Assembly: GCF_000504285.1 (NCBI RefSeq)
Contig: NZ_KI632511.1
Coordinates: 5,810,154-5,874,153 of the forward strand
DNA from: Actinospica robiniae DSM 44927
GTDB taxonomy: Bacteria; Actinomycetota; Actinomycetes; Streptomycetales; Catenulisporaceae
Direction of reading: 5' to 3'
DNA: 64,000 nt
Below are positions 6,214-39,705 of the stretch, piece after piece. A program made the position numbers and the translations under genes. Below the pieces are notes generated by a model. It did no database searches. It was not told where the DNA came from and saw only the letters and a program-made list of their open reading frames with translations. How positions within the stretch are numbered: position 1 is the first letter of the stretch; every line of letters begins with the position of its first letter.

Positions 6214-7401
6214 GTGCCTTCGCACACGCACAACTCGCCGGCTTCGGCCGGCCACGCTCCGTCGACCTCGGCTGACGGACCGGACGACTTCGAGGCCCTC
6301 CGGCCGGACGACTACCCGGCCGGGCTCCCGGCTGACGAGAGCCTCGCGGGCCTCGAGGACTCCGATGACCCCGAGAACCCCGAGAACCCCGAGAACATCT
6401 ACGACTCGTACGACGAGCATCTTTCCGACGACTTCCACGCCGAGGAGCGGGTTCGGGCCCGCAGCCTGCTCAGCGAGCAGGAGCAGAAGGCGGAGAAGCG
6501 GCTGCTGCGGCGGGGGCGGCTGACCGACCGGGAGCGGGAGCGGCTGGCGGAGCGGCGGGAGGACCAGTTCTACGCGCCGTCGCTGCCGGAGGGGGCTGAC
6601 CGCTGGTCCACTTGGGGGGAGGGGGAGCTCGGGCCGGAGCCGCGGCCGGGCTGGCTGGTGGTCGCGGACGGGGCGGTGGACAGCCGGCTGGGGGTGGTCA
6701 AGACCGGCAAGGAGGCGGACGTCCACCTCGTCGAACGGTGGCTGCCGGGGCCCAGGCCGGTGGCGGGGCCGGGCACCCCGTCGGTCGACTCCAGCTGCCT
6801 GCTCGCGGAGAAGATCTACCGCAACAACGAGCACCGCAACTTCCACCGGGACGCCGCCTACGTCGACGGCCGGCGCACGCGGGAGTCGCGGATGGATCGG
6901 GCGGTGGCGAACCGGACCCGGTTCGGGCTCAAGATCATCGCGGAGCAGTGGGCGATCGCCGAGTTCGCGGCGCTCGGGACGCTGTGGGCGGCGGGGGCTC
7001 CGGTGCCCTATCCGGTGCAGCGGGTCGGCACCGAGCTGCTGATCGAGTTCATCGGGGACGCGGACGGCTCGGCCGCGCCGCGGCTGGCGGCGCTCCGGCC
7101 CACGCCGGACGAGCTCGCCGAGCTGTGGGGGCAGCTGTGCTCGGCGCTGGAGATCGTGGCGGGGGCGGGGTACACGCACGGAGACCTCTCGCCGTGGAAC
7201 ATCCTGGTGCACGAGGGCCGGCTGGTGCTGATCGACCTGCCGCAGATCGTGGACCTCACCGTCAACCCGCGCGGCGGCGAGTACCTCGACCGGGACGTGC
7301 GCAACGTGGCCGACTGGTTCACGGCGCGCGGGCTGCCCGACGCGGAGCGGTGCGGGGAGGATCTGCTCACCACGCTGCGCTACCAGGCACGCCTGGTGTG
7401 A
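6214..7401 (+). CDS. RIO1-like serine/threonine kinase
   Basis: The protein has 395 residues. The start is a GTG at 6214 with AAAGGAA 9 bases upstream. Residues 1-70 are acidic and low-complexity, with a short PENPENPEN repeat. About 75-110 is a charged, probably coiled segment. The kinase domain spans roughly 130-390: a VKTGKEADVHLV nucleotide loop, the RIO-typical conserved Lys in LLAEKIYR, the catalytic loop HGDLSPWNILV with His322-Asp324, and the metal-binding IDLPQ at 340-344. These are diagnostic of RIO-family atypical kinases. In archaea and eukaryotes RIO1 matures ribosomes, but the role in actinobacteria is not established. It appears to be a single-gene unit. Confidence 0.85.
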   Translation: MPSHTHNSPASAGHAPSTSADGPDDFEALRPDDYPAGLPADESLAGLEDSDDPENPENPENIYDSYDEHLSDDFHAEERVRARSLLSEQEQKAEKRLLRRGRLTDRERERLAERREDQFYAPSLPEGADRWSTWGEGELGPEPRPGWLVVADGAVDSRLGVVKTGKEADVHLVERWLPGPRPVAGPGTPSVDSSCLLAEKIYRNNEHRNFHRDAAYVDGRRTRESRMDRAVANRTRFGLKIIAEQWAIAEFAALGTLWAAGAPVPYPVQRVGTELLIEFIGDADGSAAPRLAALRPTPDELAELWGQLCSALEIVAGAGYTHGDLSPWNILVHEGRLVLIDLPQIVDLTVNPRGGEYLDRDVRNVADWFTARGLPDAERCGEDLLTTLRYQARLV

Positions 7402-31401: not shown

Positions 31402-33279
31402 TTACGCCGCCTGCTGGTGCCCGGTCTCGGCCTCGGTCTGCGGGAGGGTGAAGCCGAGCCTGACCGGATCCCAGATCAGCTCGCACAGGGCCCGGTAGAG
31501 CCGCTGGCGCTCGGTGATGGACGTGATGCCGAAGGTGTGCGGATACGGCCGGAACAGCTCGGTCAGCCCGTGCCGCACCATGAACCGGCGAAAGCCCGGA
31601 TTGCGTTCGTAGCACAGCGGATGCAGCGACTTGGCCAGCAGGTTCTGCGCCCGGTAGTGCTCGGCCTTGAGCGAGAACGGGTCGTCCCGGAACGCCGCGT
31701 TGATCTCCTTCGGCAGCAGCAGCAGCGCGCCGAAGCGGTTGCGCACCGAGCGGAAGCGCTCCGGCGTGCCGACCTCCTCGGCGTACGGGCCGAAGTGGTC
31801 CGCCCAGATGTGCTCGATCTCGTACGGCCGGCCGGTCGGACCGAAGCCCAGGTACTCGGCGATCAGGTCGGGCTGGCCGCAGCAGGACTCGAGGAACCCG
31901 GTCATCCGGGCCAGCAGGTAGCGCACCTGCCGGCGGTTGTCCGAGCGCAGCCCGAAGGTCTCCAGGCCGGTGAATCCGTGCTCGATCTTGCCGATCTCCA
32001 CGGTCAGCAGCGCCCGCACCTCGTCCACCGTGCCCGCCTCGCGCAACGGCATGATCAGACCGCTTATCGACGACGCCAGATCCGCGGAGTGCAGTGACGC
32101 GTAGTTCGCCATCCGCCGGGCTATCAGCAGATCGCAGAACGCCGCGACCAGCCGGCTCTTCTCCCGGAACGCCGCGTCGGTGTCGTTCGGCCCGATCGCG
32201 GCCATGATCAGCACCAGCTGCGCGCCGAAGCCGTTGGCGGCGTTGTAGAACACCGGCTCGAAGCCGCGCACCGGTGCCGCGCTCGCCTCGACCAGGCTGC
32301 GGTAGCGGTCGGCCAGCGGCCTGATGGTGTCCCGGATGAACACCCGGTAGTCGCGGGCCCGGTGCAGCCCGAGCGCGTCCGGGTTCTGCCGCACCCACTC
32401 GTGAAAAGCTTTTCCGATGCGTTCCGCGGTCGCCTGGTCGGTCGGCGCGTAGCGGGCGCGCAGCACGGTCTTGACGAAGTCGCCGGGCGCCTGGTCGTCG
32501 GTGACCGCGAGCGCCGACATGGTGCGCCGCCACACCGCGTTCAGGGCGCTGTGATCCTTGTCGGCCCGGGAGAGCAGGAACGACTTGAGCAGGTCCAACG
32601 GCGTCAGCCGGGCCCCGCGGTCGTTCATCGACTCGAAGATCTCCCAGCCGTGGTCCCGGTCCCTGGCCGAGATCTCCACCAGGAACACCCGCTCCAGCAG
32701 CCAGTCCACGAAGTACGGCAGGGCCCTGCCGCGCAGGCCCGCGGGCAGGTCCTCGACCAGGTCCCGGTAGCGCTGGCACATGTTGCGCACGGCCAGCGGC
32801 GTCTGCTCGGTCACCGGATAGTCGCGCCCGGCCCGCAGCTGACGCAGGGCCGGCTCGCGTTCGTCCACGTGCACGGTGAACGTGGGCACGCCGTACTGCA
32901 CGGTGCAGATCATCTGGTCCAGCACGGCCGCGCCGGCGTGCTCGTCCGCCTCGGTGAGCAGATGCCGCAGCCGGATCAGCAGGAGCAGCAGGGTGGTGAA
33001 CCGCTGCTGCCCGTCGACCAGGAAGGACATGCCCGGCACCGGATAGGTGACGAACGGGCCGAGGAAGTAGGGCCGGTAGTCGGCCACGTCCGCCCGCTCG
33101 TGGTCCGGATGCCACTGCTCGAGGAAGCGTCCGGCCAGGTCGTCGAGCAGGTCCGTGACGTGCGTGCGGTTCCAGTCGTACTCGCGCTGATAGTGTTCCA
33201 ACCCGTAGCGGCGGCCGGTGAACAGTTCCCGGACCGAATGCCCGCGTCCGTCGATTCGCTCCTGAGCCTGCTTTGCCAC
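31402..33279 (-). CDS. GmrSD-like DUF262-DUF1524 protein, probable defence nuclease
   Basis: The protein has 625 residues from the GTG at 33279, preceded by GGGGGA. The N-terminal DUF262 domain (about 15-260) has YQREYDWN, the nucleotide-binding/ParB-like loop FLVDGQQRFTTLL near residue 89 and the FESMNDRGARLTPLDLLKSF block. The C-terminal DUF1524 domain (about 400-610) has an HNH-like core: EIEHIWADHFG near 490, then NRFGALLLLPKEIN. GmrS and GmrD of the E. coli type IV system that cuts modified phage DNA have these domains, here fused. It stands alone between phosphoesterase and glucosidase genes. The usual His-x-x-Pro of DUF1524 is replaced by HIWADH. Confidence 0.75.
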   Translation of the reverse strand: MAKQAQERIDGRGHSVRELFTGRRYGLEHYQREYDWNRTHVTDLLDDLAGRFLEQWHPDHERADVADYRPYFLGPFVTYPVPGMSFLVDGQQRFTTLLLLLIRLRHLLTEADEHAGAAVLDQMICTVQYGVPTFTVHVDEREPALRQLRAGRDYPVTEQTPLAVRNMCQRYRDLVEDLPAGLRGRALPYFVDWLLERVFLVEISARDRDHGWEIFESMNDRGARLTPLDLLKSFLLSRADKDHSALNAVWRRTMSALAVTDDQAPGDFVKTVLRARYAPTDQATAERIGKAFHEWVRQNPDALGLHRARDYRVFIRDTIRPLADRYRSLVEASAAPVRGFEPVFYNAANGFGAQLVLIMAAIGPNDTDAAFREKSRLVAAFCDLLIARRMANYASLHSADLASSISGLIMPLREAGTVDEVRALLTVEIGKIEHGFTGLETFGLRSDNRRQVRYLLARMTGFLESCCGQPDLIAEYLGFGPTGRPYEIEHIWADHFGPYAEEVGTPERFRSVRNRFGALLLLPKEINAAFRDDPFSLKAEHYRAQNLLAKSLHPLCYERNPGFRRFMVRHGLTELFRPYPHTFGITSITERQRLYRALCELIWDPVRLGFTLPQTEAETGHQQAA

Positions 33280-33491
33280 GATGTACCGTCCCCCGAAAAG
33301 GACCGTGCGCGCCGGGCCCCGACACGCGAGGAGTCGCGCGCTTCGGTGGCGTACGGATGGCTCCGCCGCGCGCCCAACGCGCCTTGAGTTGACCCGCTTC
33401 CTGCCCCAGTGCGCCCCTTGTCCGCGCTGTCCATTGGGCATGTGCCCTGATCAGGAAGCTGGAAAACCCAACGGAAAGCCACGGTTTCGTG

Positions 33492-36089
33492 TCATCCACG
33501 GATGAGTCGGGCAACCAGCGCGGTCCATCCGGTCTGGTGGGAGGCCCCCAGCCCGCGTCCGGTCTCCCCGTGGAAGTACTCGTGGAACCACGGCCGCTCG
33601 GCCCAGCGCGGGTCGCCTTGGAAGAGCTCTGCCTCGCCCAGCACCGGTCGCCGCCCGTGCTCGTCCGGCCGGAAGATGTCGAGCAGGCCCTCGCGCAGCT
33701 CCCCCGGCAGCTTGCGCCGATCCGTGCGCAGCACCACCTGGCCGTCCAGCGCCCGCAGCACCCGCTCGACCGTCTCGATCAGCAGGTAGTTCATCGGCAT
33801 CCAGATCGGCCCGCGCCAGTTGGAGTTGCCGCCGAACAGCCCCGAGGTGGACTCCCCGGGCTCGTAGTCCACCCCGGCGTGCACCCCGGCCACCTCCACC
33901 TCGAACGGGTGGTCGCGGTGGTAGCGGGAGAGCGAGCGCAGCCCGTAGGGCGAACGGAACTCCTCCGGGTCGGCCACGCGGGCGAGCACCCGGTCCGCCT
34001 GGTCCACGTCGACCAGCGAGAAGATGAGCCCGCCGTCGTCCCGGAACCGGGTGACCGCGCGCATGTACTCCGGCCGGCGCGTGGTGAACTCGACCAGGTG
34101 CCGGGCGAAGCGCGGCAGCCGGCGCATGGTCTCCGGCGAGATCGGCAGCATCGCCAGCAGCGGCACCAGTCCGACCATCGAGCGCACCCGCATGGTGACG
34201 GCGGTCCCGTCCGGGCAGCGCAGCCGGTCGTAGAAGAACCCGTCGTCCTCGTCCCACAGGCCGCCGTCGTTGATGGCCGCCGCGATGTACGCGTAGTGCT
34301 CGGCGAACTTGCAGGCCATCTCCTCGTAGATGGGGTCGCGCAGAGCCAGCTCGACCGACATCTCCAGCATGGACAGGCAGAAGAAACCCATCCACCCCGT
34401 CCCGTCGGACTGCTCCAGCACCCCGCCCACCGGCAGCTTGGAGCGGTCGAAGGCGCCGATGTTGTCGAGGCCGAGGAATCCGCCCTCGAAGATGTTGTTC
34501 TCCCCGTCGTCCTTCCGGTTGACCCAGTAGGTGAAGTTGAGCAGCAGCTTGTGGAAGCAGGCGCGCAGGAAGTCGACGTCCTCGCCGGCCGCCCGGTAGA
34601 CCGCCAGCGCGGCCCAGGCCAGCACCGGCGGGTTCATGTCGTTGAAGTCCCACTCGTAGGCGGGCAGCAGGCCGTTGGCGTGCTGGTAGCGCTGGGACAG
34701 GAAGGTGTAGAGCTGCTCCTTCGCCAAGCCGGGGTCGATCCCGCTGACGGCCACGCAGTGGAAGGCGAGGTCCCACGCCGCGAACCAGGGGTACTCCCAG
34801 GGGTCCGGCATGATGAACACGTCGCGGGCCCACAGGTGGCTCCAGTCGGCGTTGCGATCGTGCGCCCGGTGCTCGGGCGGCAGCGGCTGCGCTGGATCGC
34901 CCTCGAGCCAGCGGTGGACGTCGTAGTGGTAGAACTGCTGCGCCCAGACGAGCCCCGCGTACGCCTGCCGCAGGATCCGCGCGTCCGTCGCTGACGCGCC
35001 CGAAGGCGCGACGGAGGCGTAGAACTGGTCCGCCTCGGCTTCGCGCGAAGCCAGGCACTCGGTAGTCGCGGCGAGGTCCGGCAGCTCGTCCACGGCCTCC
35101 GTCAGGGCCAGGTGAAGGGTCTGTGTCTCCCCCGGACCGAGCGAGAGGACGTAGTGCAGCGCGCCCTTCGTCCCGGTGCCCTCCGGATTGACCGTGGCCG
35201 CTCCGGAGAGGACGTGGTCGCCGATGCCGTCCTTCGGATACGCGGAGGCGTTCGAGGCGCCCGCGCCGTAGAGGAGCTCCGCGTTGGTCTCGTTGTCGCA
35301 CACCAGCGGCTCGGGGGAGAGCCTGGAGACGTCGGTGAGGGTGATCGACGCGAAGTGCGGGTGCCGAGCGGTGAGCATGCCTTCCGAGCCGACCACGCCG
35401 ACCAACCCCGAGTCCACCGCGTCCTCGATGTCCGCGGCACGCCCCCAAGCCCACATGTTGCGCAGCCAGAGGTGCGGGAGCACGTGCAGCGTGGCCGGAT
35501 CCGGTCCGCAGTTGGTCACCGTCACGCGGATGGCGTAAGCATGCGGCGAGGCCTTGGCGTAGTCCGCCGTGATCGCGAAGTACCGGTCCTCGTCGAAGAC
35601 GCCGGTGTCTACGAGCTCGAACTCAGCCTCGTCCTTCGACCGCCCCGCGTTCTCCGCGCGCAGCCGAGCGTAAGGGAATTCGGCCTGCGGGTAGTGGTAG
35701 CGCCAGGAGAGCCAGGAAGCGGTGGGAGTCGCGTCCTCATACCACCAGTAGTCCTTGGCGTCCTCGCCGTGATTGCCCTCGGCGTTGACGAGTCCGAAGG
35801 CGCGCTCCTTGAGGATCGGGTCGCGTCCGTTCCAAAAGGCAAGGGCGAAGCACCAGTCCTGGTTCCGGTTGCACAGACCGGCCATGCCGTCTTCGCTCCA
35901 GCGGTAGACCCGCGAGCGTGCGTGGTCGAACGGGAAGTACGACCACGCGTCCCCATCTGCGCTGTAGTCCTCACGGACGGTTCCCCACGCCCGCTCGGAC
36001 AGGTACGGCCCCCAGTCGCGCCACGGAGCCGTACCCTCGTCGGCCCCCGTGAGCCGTTCGTGCTCGCTGTGCTCGGAAGTTTCAGCCAC
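33492..36089 (-). CDS. GH63-like glucosidase (MGH1-type)
   Basis: The protein has 865 residues with no signal peptide, so it is probably cytosolic. It begins with ERAWGTVREDYSADGDAWSYF and continues FGLVNAEGNHGEDAKDYWWY, LPHLWLRNMWAWG, the (alpha/alpha)6-barrel segments RDVFIMPDPWEYPWFAAWDL and GGFLGLDNIGAFDRS, and ends with RGPIWMPMNYLL and GEGTGRGLGASHQTGW-type residues. This is the pattern of bacterial GH63-like glucosidases related to processing alpha-glucosidase. In actinomycetes the likely substrates are glucosylglycerate-like or mannosylglycerate compounds. It lies 49 bases after the exported-peptide gene on the same strand. Confidence 0.8.
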   Translation of the reverse strand: MAETSEHSEHERLTGADEGTAPWRDWGPYLSERAWGTVREDYSADGDAWSYFPFDHARSRVYRWSEDGMAGLCNRNQDWCFALAFWNGRDPILKERAFGLVNAEGNHGEDAKDYWWYEDATPTASWLSWRYHYPQAEFPYARLRAENAGRSKDEAEFELVDTGVFDEDRYFAITADYAKASPHAYAIRVTVTNCGPDPATLHVLPHLWLRNMWAWGRAADIEDAVDSGLVGVVGSEGMLTARHPHFASITLTDVSRLSPEPLVCDNETNAELLYGAGASNASAYPKDGIGDHVLSGAATVNPEGTGTKGALHYVLSLGPGETQTLHLALTEAVDELPDLAATTECLASREAEADQFYASVAPSGASATDARILRQAYAGLVWAQQFYHYDVHRWLEGDPAQPLPPEHRAHDRNADWSHLWARDVFIMPDPWEYPWFAAWDLAFHCVAVSGIDPGLAKEQLYTFLSQRYQHANGLLPAYEWDFNDMNPPVLAWAALAVYRAAGEDVDFLRACFHKLLLNFTYWVNRKDDGENNIFEGGFLGLDNIGAFDRSKLPVGGVLEQSDGTGWMGFFCLSMLEMSVELALRDPIYEEMACKFAEHYAYIAAAINDGGLWDEDDGFFYDRLRCPDGTAVTMRVRSMVGLVPLLAMLPISPETMRRLPRFARHLVEFTTRRPEYMRAVTRFRDDGGLIFSLVDVDQADRVLARVADPEEFRSPYGLRSLSRYHRDHPFEVEVAGVHAGVDYEPGESTSGLFGGNSNWRGPIWMPMNYLLIETVERVLRALDGQVVLRTDRRKLPGELREGLLDIFRPDEHGRRPVLGEAELFQGDPRWAERPWFHEYFHGETGRGLGASHQTGWTALVARLIRG

Positions 36090-36138: not shown

Positions 36139-36318
36139 TCAGACAGAGACCGAGACAGTCTCGGTGTCAGGCACGCCCGCCTGGTTGAAGCAAGCCAGAC
36201 AGGCAGTCACGGTCTTCGGCGCCGGCGCATGCCCGGGCGCCAGAACGGCACCGACTGCCAGCAAGCCGAGCAGGGCTATACCAGTCAGCCCGCTACGAAA
36301 GTTGTTAAACCTGGACAT
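36139..36318 (-). CDS. Small exported peptide with Cys-containing tail
   Basis: The protein has 59 residues. The ATG at 36318 has AGGGTGGAG directly upstream. Residues 1-9 are basic/polar, 10-27 hydrophobic (LTGIALLGLLAVGAVLAPG), followed by an AxA-like GHAPA cleavage region. The predicted mature tail of about 26 residues contains TACLACFNQAG (a CxxC) and ends ETVSVSV. I recognise no family, and no lanthipeptide or other modification enzyme is adjacent. It is divergent from a LuxR/TrmB-type regulator across 253 bases and precedes the GH63 gene. The size, export signal and partner regulator suggest a signalling peptide, which is inference. Confidence 0.6.
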   Translation of the reverse strand: MSRFNNFRSGLTGIALLGLLAVGAVLAPGHAPAPKTVTACLACFNQAGVPDTETVSVSV

Positions 36319-36396
36319 CTCCACCCTCAAAATCGCGTCGCTCGAGTGCAATCGCCGCTTACCGGCCGCGATGAGCGTACTCGTCCACCTCCGAGC

Positions 36397-36438
36397 ATGC
36401 TTTCCAGCTGGCCGCCCAACTATAGTCAGTATGCTTTC
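36397..36438. promoter_or_regulatory. Paired ATGCTTTC repeats around a palindromic -10 core
   Basis: ATGCTTTC occurs at 36397-36404 and 36431-36438, 34 bases apart (about three helical turns). Between them lies ACTATAGT (36419-36426), a palindrome carrying a TATAGT -10 on each strand. The first repeat overlaps the -35 position for the rightward regulator gene (17-base spacing). This suggests a shared promoter with binding sites for the divergent regulator. A GGCCGGA/TCCGGCC hairpin follows at about 36450-36465. Confidence 0.5.
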
Positions 36439-36571
36439 ACCTGCACCGGGCCGGAAGACTCCGGCCTGGCATGTAGGTGCCATGAAGCTAACTGCCAGGG
36501 CATACGATGCCGTCAGATCGATGGTGACGGGGCTGCGCGATGGCAGAGCCGACTAAGGAGTCGAGACAGCG

Positions 36572-37594
36572 ATGGCCGACGTGTCTGGCAACATGGGGGA
36601 GCAGGTCCTCCAAGCTCTCGGGCTCGACCCTGTGAGCATTCAAGTCTATCTGGCCATGCATTCCACCCCCGGCGCCGATGCCGAGCAACTCGCGGAGAAG
36701 CTCAGGCTGCAGGTCGCCGAAGTGATCGATGCCCTCGACGACCTCGCCGATCTCACCTTGCTCCGCCCCGGACTCGCGCCCAACGGCCGCCTCCGCCCCG
36801 TGTCCATCGAACGAGCCATGCACACGCTGCTGCGCCAGCAGTCGGATCAGCTGACGGCGCAGGCGGATGCGTTGCGCTCGCTCCAGTCCGCGATGGACGA
36901 GATGGTGACCCAATCGGTGGGCTCCAACGTCCTGCGAGAGGTCGACGTCGAGGCTGTGAGCGGCGCCGAGATGATCCAGACCAGGATCGAGGCCACGTTC
37001 GTGCACGCGCAGGAGAGCGTCTACTCCATGCTGGACGGCGGCCCGCTGCGCAAAGAAACCCTCGACGCCGCGCGGCAGGTCGATCAAGAGACGTTGGAGC
37101 GTGGACTGCGGGTACGCGCGCTCTATCAGAGTTCCATACGCGGGGACCGTCGCACGATGGACTACATACACTGGCTCACTGAGCTCGGCGCGGAAGTCAG
37201 GGTAGCCCCCGTCATTCCGATGCGCATCATCTTGATCGACCGCACGGCCGCCGTGGTGGGCCATGTCCAGAAAAGCCTGCCGTACGAGATGTTCGTGATC
37301 CGCGAGCCCGGAATTCTCAGCCCGCTCCATGAGTACTTCAAACTGAGCTGGGCGGCTGCGGAACCGCTGATGCAGCCCGACGTGAAGGAGGCGAGTCCCG
37401 AAGCCCCGCCGACCAGCCAGGAACTCGCGCTCCTGCAACTGCTCGCCTCCGGAAGCATCGACGAGGCCGCCGCGAAGAAACTGGGGATGTCGGTCCGGTC
37501 CGTCCGCAGAATCATGGCGGATCTGATGGAGCGACTCGGAGCGACGAGCCGCTTCGAGGCCGGGCACAAAGCGACCAAGCGGGGTTGGCTCTGA
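36572..37594 (+). CDS. TrmB-like/LuxR-type transcriptional regulator
   Basis: The protein has 340 residues from the ATG at 36572. Residues about 10-75 form a TrmB-like winged helix (ALGLDPVSIQVYLAMHSTPG, ADAEQLAEKLRLQVAEVIDAL). About 130-265 is a sensor-type domain (GAEMIQTRIEATF, ELGAEVRVAPVIPMRIILID). About 280-340 is a LuxR-type HTH (LALLQLLASGSIDEAAAKKL, GMSVRSVRRIMADLMERLGA). Two DNA-binding domains in one chain are typical of an actinobacterial regulator class that often sits beside short peptide genes. It is divergent from the exported-peptide gene. The ligand is unknown. Confidence 0.8.
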   Translation: MADVSGNMGEQVLQALGLDPVSIQVYLAMHSTPGADAEQLAEKLRLQVAEVIDALDDLADLTLLRPGLAPNGRLRPVSIERAMHTLLRQQSDQLTAQADALRSLQSAMDEMVTQSVGSNVLREVDVEAVSGAEMIQTRIEATFVHAQESVYSMLDGGPLRKETLDAARQVDQETLERGLRVRALYQSSIRGDRRTMDYIHWLTELGAEVRVAPVIPMRIILIDRTAAVVGHVQKSLPYEMFVIREPGILSPLHEYFKLSWAAAEPLMQPDVKEASPEAPPTSQELALLQLLASGSIDEAAAKKLGMSVRSVRRIMADLMERLGATSRFEAGHKATKRGWL

Positions 37595-37667: not shown

Positions 37668-37882
37668 ACAGGGGTTCAGGCAGCGGCTTCGCGAGGCCGC
37701 GCCGAGGGCCGGGAATCTGGTGGGGGATCCGGCTCGTGACACCGAGTCTGCCCTATCCGGTCAGGGCTTCTGAAGGGGTTGGTGCTGGCATGACCCTGCC
37801 CGGCAACATGCTGCCAGCGGATTCCGTGACCTGCGCTTTCGCAGGATTCTGAAGGTCGGCGCACTTGCATGCGCAAAAGAAT
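37668..37882. other. Gene-free stretch between convergent regulator and thiC
   Basis: The 352 bases between the stops at 37594 and 37947 hold the two terminators and no credible coding frame. The rest is unstructured, with direct GATTCTGAAGG/GCTTCTGAAGG echoes near 37769 and 37844 that may be chance. Confidence 0.4.
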
Positions 37883-37912
37883 CAGGGCTCGCACCGCCAG
37901 GTGCGAGCCCTG
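37883..37912 (-). terminator. Intrinsic terminator of thiC
   Basis: CAGGGCTCGCACC and GGTGCGAGCCCTG form a perfect 13-bp stem with a 4-base loop, followed leftwards by ATTCTTTTG, a textbook intrinsic terminator 35 bases past the thiC stop. Confidence 0.9.
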
Positions 37913-37946
37913 AAGCCGGTCAGCGGCACCTTCGTGCCAGTCGGCT

Positions 37947-39619
<1,673 letters not shown>

Positions 39620-39705
39620 GATGTTCGATTGTCTCCGTCAGCGTAGCGCGCCGACCCTCCCGGGGACACGAGGGTCCCGTCGCTCGTCGGCGCGCATCGG
39701 CGATA

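Follow-up and report, generated by a model that had tools for sequence, protein, structure and literature searches.

Paired genes for a small exported peptide and a TrmB/LuxR-type regulator, widespread in soil actinomycetes and apparently undescribed, look like a peptide-based signaling system

The stretch of Actinospica robiniae DNA analyzed here, referred to as the window, is 64 kb long and comes from a genome of 9.9 Mb in a single contig. An ORF of 59 residues on the minus strand (36139–36318) begins with ATG, directly preceded by the ribosome-binding site GAGGGTGGAG (36319–36328, minus strand), and translates as MSRFNNFRSGLTGIALLGLLAVGAVLAPGHAPAPKTVTACLACFNQAGVPDTETVSVSV. Its N-terminus resembles a Sec signal, and cleavage at the predicted site would leave about PAPKTVTACLACFNQAGVPDTETVSVSV. 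Export is a heuristic call, as signal peptides at all loci were judged by a home-made rule and not by SignalP. Only three small ORFs with a signal-like N-terminus and a ribosome site pass this rule in the window, and the 59-residue ORF has the second-strongest hydrophobic core among them. Divergent from it, with 254 bp between the two starts, lies a gene for a TrmB/LuxR-type regulator (36572–37594, plus strand). The first-pass annotation had described this arrangement, and our analysis confirms it.

A GH63 gene had also been placed 3′ of the peptide gene in the same direction. Domain search identifies a GH63/MGH1-like hydrolase there (33492–36089, minus strand), 49 nt from the peptide stop codon, and this gene is a possible read-through target of the peptide transcript. 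Because the immediate neighbors of the pair are the GH63-like gene and ThiC, the earlier statement that no modification enzyme or transporter adjoins it also stands. Elsewhere in the window, a TPP riboswitch lies ahead of thiC (39522–39628, minus strand, Rfam 64.9 bits), and a GmrSD-type restriction endonuclease homolog (31402–33441, minus strand, GmrSD_N 1e-22) has metallophosphatase and NERD-domain ORFs nearby.

The regulator is a one-component protein of 340 residues, assigned from Pfam and a structural model a TrmB-like winged helix-turn-helix (wHTH), a PLD-like middle and a C-terminal LuxR/GerE HTH. For the window protein itself both Pfam matches are sub-threshold (TrmB at the N-terminus, 18.2 bits with a cut-off of 25.6; GerE at the C-terminus, 23.4 bits with a cut-off of 23.5), and at E 0.01 GerE is detected in all 46 of 46 regulator family members and TrmB in 32 of them. 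An AF2 model built from 46 homologs had a mean pLDDT of 88 and a pTM of 0.67. Foldseek with this model returned TrmBL2 (5bpd, 3e-14), TrmB (3qph, 2f5t) and PLD proteins, and a profile search of solved structures added NarL/DevR-type C-terminal HTHs. The model supports the order of an N-terminal wHTH, a PLD-like middle and a C-terminal HTH. TPR proteins were absent from the 50 Foldseek matches listed. The suggestion that this receptor class differs from the peptide receptors of low-GC Gram-positive bacteria is borne out by the model, which has a PLD-like middle and a GerE end and lacks a TPR fold.

The peptide/regulator pair is present in all three Actinospica genomes examined (that of the window, G001 and G002). 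A locus of Actinospica durhamensis agrees with G001 at 100% over 1590 bases, and the genus common to the window, G001 and G002 is accordingly taken as Actinospica. The regulators of G001 and G002 are 72% and 55% identical to that of the window, a GH63-like gene adjoins the regulator in both (88% and 82% identity, respectively), and ThiC is next in order at the G002 locus. An exported ORF occupies the same divergent place in each, MSKFRTVRYRITTLAMLGLLMGGIATTTAHASASGSDVACAACLGGAPTTSEAAFQVVSF in G001 and MSKFRAVVGSLAAVGLIAALGATLTFTASSSTGHTVTAAVAESNASIACYTCVGDV in G002, and the peptides of the three species have in common the start MS[RK]F and a CxxC motif. In an alignment with eight Catenulispora-type peptides, most of which end in CxxCW, both cysteines are invariant (the CVCWG row has them nearer to each other by one residue), and the window CxxC aligns with the Catenulispora CxxCW. 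The homologous core of the aligned peptides is ACxxC[W/F/L/V], which reads ACLACF in the window peptide, with a C-terminus of CLACF..VSVSV. The Trp after CxxC is replaced by F, L or V in the three Actinospica species, their tails are ragged, and the window peptide has no Trp motif at or near its C-terminus. The VSVSV ending, put forward earlier as a possible conserved signal, occurs in the window species alone and is absent from the G001 and G002 orthologs, the homologous core being CxxC. With the peptide alone as the query, 11 of 60 genomes gave matches at E 0.1, among which, beyond the query genome, only that in G001 (9e-5) is convincing. The window regulator alone, searched against genome contigs, returned no relatives.

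The wider family was examined at 80 named regulator loci, mostly from Streptomyces and Kitasatospora, which ranked highest among the 205 relatives given by an alignment search. Small signal-peptide ORFs beside the regulator homologs were scored, as the first-pass annotation had proposed, by a fixed rule that required a signal-like N-terminus and W[DGESNTQM] followed by no more than three residues, within 1.2 kb of the regulator. A terminal-Trp exported ORF was found at 61 of the 80 regulator loci, compared with 4 of 30 IclR control loci, and the small ORF is thus conserved beside regulator homologs. The four IclR matches are similar to each other, and each is contained in a longer frame; they were kept as hits because such a position is weak evidence in GC-rich DNA. 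When the anchors were shifted by 2.6 kb, the same rule gave 6 hits in 149, four of which are by eye displaced family peptides.

A wider rule, extended to 1.5 kb and also accepting CxxC or a repeated motif, found a small exported ORF at 63 of the 80 loci, including one wrong pick at L122 (a fragment of gene M, described below), where inspection by eye reveals an exported ORF containing ISWE. Two further automatic picks, at L040 and L045, are false, and both loci lie outside the 80. The ORF is divergent in 58 of the 63, with a median start-to-start distance of 287 bp; 51 of these 58 fall within 200–420 bp, a range that includes the 254 bp of the window. Rule and inspection together place a small exported ORF at 73 of the 80 loci, which are not independent events because the loci are related to each other. 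Ten of these were added by eye (L060, L066, L078, L082, L085, L087, L112, L127, L128 and L130); six of the ten peptides lie far from the regulator (about 1.8–4 kb), and in L128 and L130 the motif is non-terminal. Rule and inspection revealed no peptide at the other seven (L070, L077, L080, L088, L094, L118 and L131).

Family regulators also occur on plasmids (66 records, 64 of them from Streptomyces), and those of the listed plasmid best matches that carry an annotation are named as HTH or LuxR-type regulators. Ten fresh plasmid loci (L230–L239) contained a peptide in five cases by rule, and L236 and L239 were added by eye. Of 246 genomes from across the phylum, 13 matched a profile of the regulator at E 1e-40, and 8 of these 13 belong to its own order. 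The A. robiniae genome itself holds two further pairs, with the tails CAGCWG (L174) and DGLIWD (L175), and two regulators with no peptide by rule (L176 and L177). At the level of sequence, these comparisons demonstrate a conserved peptide/regulator module across Streptomycetales and some other actinomycetes, of which the window is a derived member. A search of the openly licensed literature, a scope outside which most subscription papers and bioRxiv fall, found no description of the family.

The peptides of the family usually end in a Trp motif, [GNSI]WD, xWG or CxxCW. Repeated tails are frequent, with two to five xxWD copies in 39 of 63 precursors. In the L082 precursor, at least seven SISWD repeats can be read. 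The final codons hardly vary within two sets chosen by clade and tail, one of eleven SINWD and one of thirteen [VAT]IGWD precursors. Whole-ORF dN/dS for 17 pairs ranged from 0.19 to 1.84, with 11 of the 17 between 0.6 and 1.15. When tail classes were placed on a tree of 101 regulators (89 labeled rows), 22 changes were required, compared with at least 43 in 300 shuffles. This clustering shows linkage of tail and receptor sequences and not contact between them, and it can result from vertical linkage alone.

Many divergent spacers of the family contain the palindrome GGCACCWWGGTGCC, which at 12 or more matches out of 14 is present in 45 of 83 spacers and in 0.9% of 1660 Markov shuffles; its seed was first seen in those same 83 spacers. 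It occurs at 44 of the 67 loci that have a peptide nearby and at none of the 13 that lack one (Fisher p = 7e-6), but two of those 13, L080 and L087, do carry a site according to a longer, 48-bp model. Along the peptide strand, the palindrome leads in register into a third half-site and CCTTC, with a CAnnAT-GGTG block roughly 19 nt further on. Across about 75 bp, this register is constant in 33 non-redundant loci.

The divergent spacer of the window contains the putative operator palindrome TGGCATGTAGGTGCCA (36467–36482), which matches the family palindrome at 12 of 14 positions; its G001 and G002 orthologs match at 11 of 14. The pattern TGGCANNTANNTGCCA, written from the three orthologous sites that it then found, occurs once per genome in the three Actinospica genomes, always in the divergent spacer, and 0 times in the reversed control. 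Scored with a matrix built without it, the operator is the second-best 18-bp site of the window. The best is GCGGCACCTTCGTGCCAG (37923–37940, score 19.8) beside the thiC 3′ end, which is poor on the full promoter model (10.5).

A putative peptide promoter, P1, is suggested by the sequence CTTCC (36457–36453), 19 nt and CATACT (36433–36428), together spanning 36428–36457 on the minus strand. The spacer that contains it is 66.3% and 50.9% identical to the window in G001 and G002, respectively. The palindrome lies upstream of CTTCC, a likely −35 element, which we infer to be an activator position; with this geometry the regulator would most likely activate the peptide gene. The 48-bp promoter model, for which 22 non-redundant promoters from other genomes served as training set, gave P1 a score of 12.5, no better than the maximum of the 30 IclR control loci (12.6), none of which scored 20 or above. 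The support for P1 is its 12/14 palindrome, the full 48-bp model not being matched there.

Elsewhere in the family, the 48-bp model located sites 119–170 bp before seven displaced peptides (L066, L073, L078, L087, L091, L111 and L124), and no site above 14 before the displaced peptides of L085, L109, L112, L123 and L127. It also found a site of 37.2 before gene M at L080, where no peptide was found, and one of 32.1 in the peptide-less spacer of L087. Only three of the ten plasmid loci score above 26, among them L233, which has no peptide by rule. Nine peptide loci score only 1–8 (L032, L033, L035, L036, L185, L027, L028, L174 and L175), and because several of these, including the paralogs in the A. 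robiniae genome, lie outside the main clade, the operator differs between subfamilies. Within the main clade, the modules have a common promoter type as judged by sequence. A family-type promoter scoring 39.0 was also seen in L064 (Actinospica durhamensis, about position 6475, minus strand), with no obvious exported peptide behind it.

The best composite site in the window is a second predicted promoter, P2 (37770–37817, minus strand), in which the 48-bp model finds the palindrome, the third half-site and CCCTTC in register. It scores 32.3 at 37815 on the minus strand, the next site scores 12.5, and counterparts at the same place score 32.2 in G001 and 29.0 in G002. A 138-nt element lies 3′ of P2 (37623–37760, minus strand) and is a candidate regulated small RNA. 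It is 95.7% (G001) and 94.2% (G002) identical to the window, compared with 73.4% and 63.4% for the DNA of the regulator gene; the last part of thiC, at 86.4% (G002 only), is also below it. The element is present in a single copy per Actinospica genome, and among 80 genomes searched only the three of Actinospica gave long matches, 12 others giving matches of 27–61 bases only.

The 138-nt element matches no Rfam family at gathering score. Five matches, all below gathering scores, were obtained for the stretch searched with it, and the best (E 0.0034) is a hairpin outside the element. This strong hairpin (37882–37913) is followed by a T-rich stretch on the minus strand and is likely the thiC terminator. 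The fold of the element shows no clear gain in stability over shuffles (z −1.5 for the minus and −1.1 for the plus strand), and consensus folding gave two-sided changes in 2 of 43 pairs (minus) and 0 of 47 (plus), weak support for a structure. A minus-strand protein within the element was rejected by eye, because substitutions change amino acids in the open frame and G002 lacks the GTG start. The strand of the element is taken from that of P2. On the simplest reading, it would be a small RNA activated by the regulator of the pair; proximity and site type suggest that the adjacent regulator, and not a paralog, binds P2.

Genes near the family loci were also compared. The GH63-like gene stands beside the two Actinospica orthologs and beside 0 of the 80 other loci, which gives no support to its being part of the module. 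A small protein of about 85–110 residues, gene M, was detected in 71 of the 80 loci with a self-trained profile (E 1e-4), and 68 of the 71 have it on the strand opposite to the regulator and upstream of it; none was found at the window locus. Two M proteins gave no family match in Pfam or NCBIfam. The M model shows a ferredoxin-like order of elements (pLDDT 89); a function from fold was discarded, with no PDB match at E 0.001. M proteins carry a DLLWAHA..GLEH motif (for example L100:3147–3473). A gene for a secreted FG-GAP-repeat/NlpC-P60-like protein lies near 30 of the 80 loci, on the same strand and further along, 3′ of the peptide and M in L072:1550–3076, L106:1688–3193 and L068:1704–3095. 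One member has an NlpC/P60 match just over the cut-off, and the annotation of one Streptomyces plasmid locus is of the same type. This gene is a possible output or processing gene, and its recurrence may point to a surface function. No modification enzyme was recognized among the recurring neighbors resolved by clustering and by eye.

We propose, with a probability of about 0.55, that the locus encodes an autoregulated peptide, exported and then detected by a one-component regulator, whose targets are the peptide gene and probably the RNA. The proposal builds on four features seen directly in the sequences, namely conservation of the pair, the common promoter architecture, the near-unique operator and the clustering of tails on the regulator tree. 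From these we infer a path from secretion to regulation. A small precursor would be exported by Sec and then trimmed, and its tail would be the signal, in most members a Trp motif and in Actinospica the ACxxC core. The peptide would re-enter the cytoplasm, probably via an oligopeptide (Opp-type) importer; the A. robiniae genome has eleven SBP_bac_5 matches (generic importers), so import is possible. It would then bind the PLD-like domain of the TrmB/PLD-like/LuxR receptor, whose model resembles the ligand-sensing TrmBL2/TrmB family, and switch DNA binding by the HTH domains. The regulator would act at the GGCAnnnnnnTGCC palindrome, upstream of the −35-like CTTCC element, most likely activating the peptide gene in a positive feedback. 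In Actinospica it would also activate P2, which faces the conserved 138-nt RNA. The peptide-signaling pair suggested by the first-pass annotation is therefore retained in part: pairing, shared promoter architecture and clustering of tails with the regulator speak for it, whereas VSVSV as the conserved signal and GH63 as part of the module find no support.

It is rather less probable that the peptide is itself an effector (antimicrobial, surface or matrix), and that the regulator senses another ligand and simply controls peptide expression. TrmB senses sugars, and a sugar-binding domain is among the solved structures of TrmB relatives (2f5t). The GH63-like hydrolase 3′ of the Actinospica peptide and the secreted FG-GAP/NlpC-P60-like gene of the wider family would suit an effector, and the common promoter control fits it equally well. 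However, the short tail is maintained against the variation of the ORF as a whole (dN/dS of 0.6–1.15 in 11 of 17 pairs), and the tiny tails, many of them in several copies, group by regulator clade.

We consider it unlikely that the Actinospica system is a relic or has been rewired, such that a peptide without Trp tail and gene M no longer signals and the regulator mainly serves P2. The replacement of Trp by F, L or V after CxxC, the ragged tails in three species and the missing gene M are in line with this, as are a weak P1 beside a canonical P2 and a 138-nt element far better conserved than the peptide. Yet all three species have retained the small exported ORF, its CxxC and the P1 palindrome, despite a spacer at only 51–66% identity.

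That the peptides are RiPP precursors with enzymes encoded elsewhere, giving an antibiotic-like mature product, appears quite improbable. The precursors are short, with C-terminal cores that contain Trp or Cys and are often repeated, and a small protein of unknown function, M, accompanies most loci. Sec-like signal sequences, however, are atypical of RiPP leaders, the recurring neighbors resolved are M and the FG-GAP/NlpC-P60-like gene and include no modification enzyme, and the two M proteins searched match no Pfam or NCBIfam family. A chance frame beside the regulator, to which the small size of the ORF, its third-position GC of 0.72 (below the 0.83 and 0.93 of its neighbors) and the fast divergence of the peptide sequences could point, is rejected as highly improbable, given that an exported ORF with MS[RK]F and CxxC recurs at the same place in G001 and G002, and across the family far more often than at control loci.

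Returning to the signaling interpretation, a broader generalization can be offered tentatively. Streptomycetes and their relatives may possess a pheromone class in which Sec-exported precursors carry a Trp-ended pentapeptide in one to many copies (GIGWD, SINWD, VIGWD, CxxCWG and others), read by TrmB/PLD-like/LuxR receptors that act on a palindromic autoinduction promoter. The Actinospica switch would in addition drive a conserved RNA of ~140 nt from P2, an RNAIII-like output with an evolutionary origin separate from agr. A common peptide/one-component switch, on chromosomes and on Streptomyces plasmids, would add a signal class in the main antibiotic producers. If the switch is real, its simple, synthesizable peptides are candidate inducers of silent genes, and the conserved element at P2 offers a concrete, measurable output.

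Comparison with known systems reveals partial likenesses. Like archaeal TrmB and TrmBL2, the modeled regulator has an N-terminal wHTH and a PLD-like domain, but it is actinobacterial, has an extra C-terminal GerE HTH, and is partnered with an exported peptide. The GerE HTH at the C-terminus is shared with LuxR-type quorum-sensing regulators (TraR, LasR, CviR), whose sensor domain differs from the one in our model. The yeast alpha-factor precursor is secreted with several copies of one short sequence, and many precursors of this family likewise hold a repeated short tail, although the system is bacterial. The agr system of Staphylococcus has the promoters P2 and P3 and the RNA RNAIII. At the Actinospica locus, similarly, related sites mark two predicted promoters, that of the peptide gene and another that faces a conserved element. 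In contrast to agr, neither AgrB nor a histidine kinase or response regulator is encoded beside the peptide, and the candidate RNA element, as delimited by sequence, is about 140 nt.

RRNPP systems consist of a small exported propeptide and a cytoplasmic receptor encoded by two adjacent genes, as outlined in PMC10075063. As in the RRNPP systems of Firmicutes (Rap, Rgg, NprR, PlcR, PrgX), a gene for a predicted small exported propeptide here adjoins that of a candidate receptor, and the A. robiniae genome holds more than one pair. The host phylum, in contrast, is Actinomycetota, many precursors carry tandem tail copies, and the receptor is modeled with a wHTH, a PLD-like domain and a LuxR HTH, with no TPR fold. 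The system lies outside the RRNPP family, because its receptor is not an RRNPP protein, but by analogy the peptide/regulator module may work like one.
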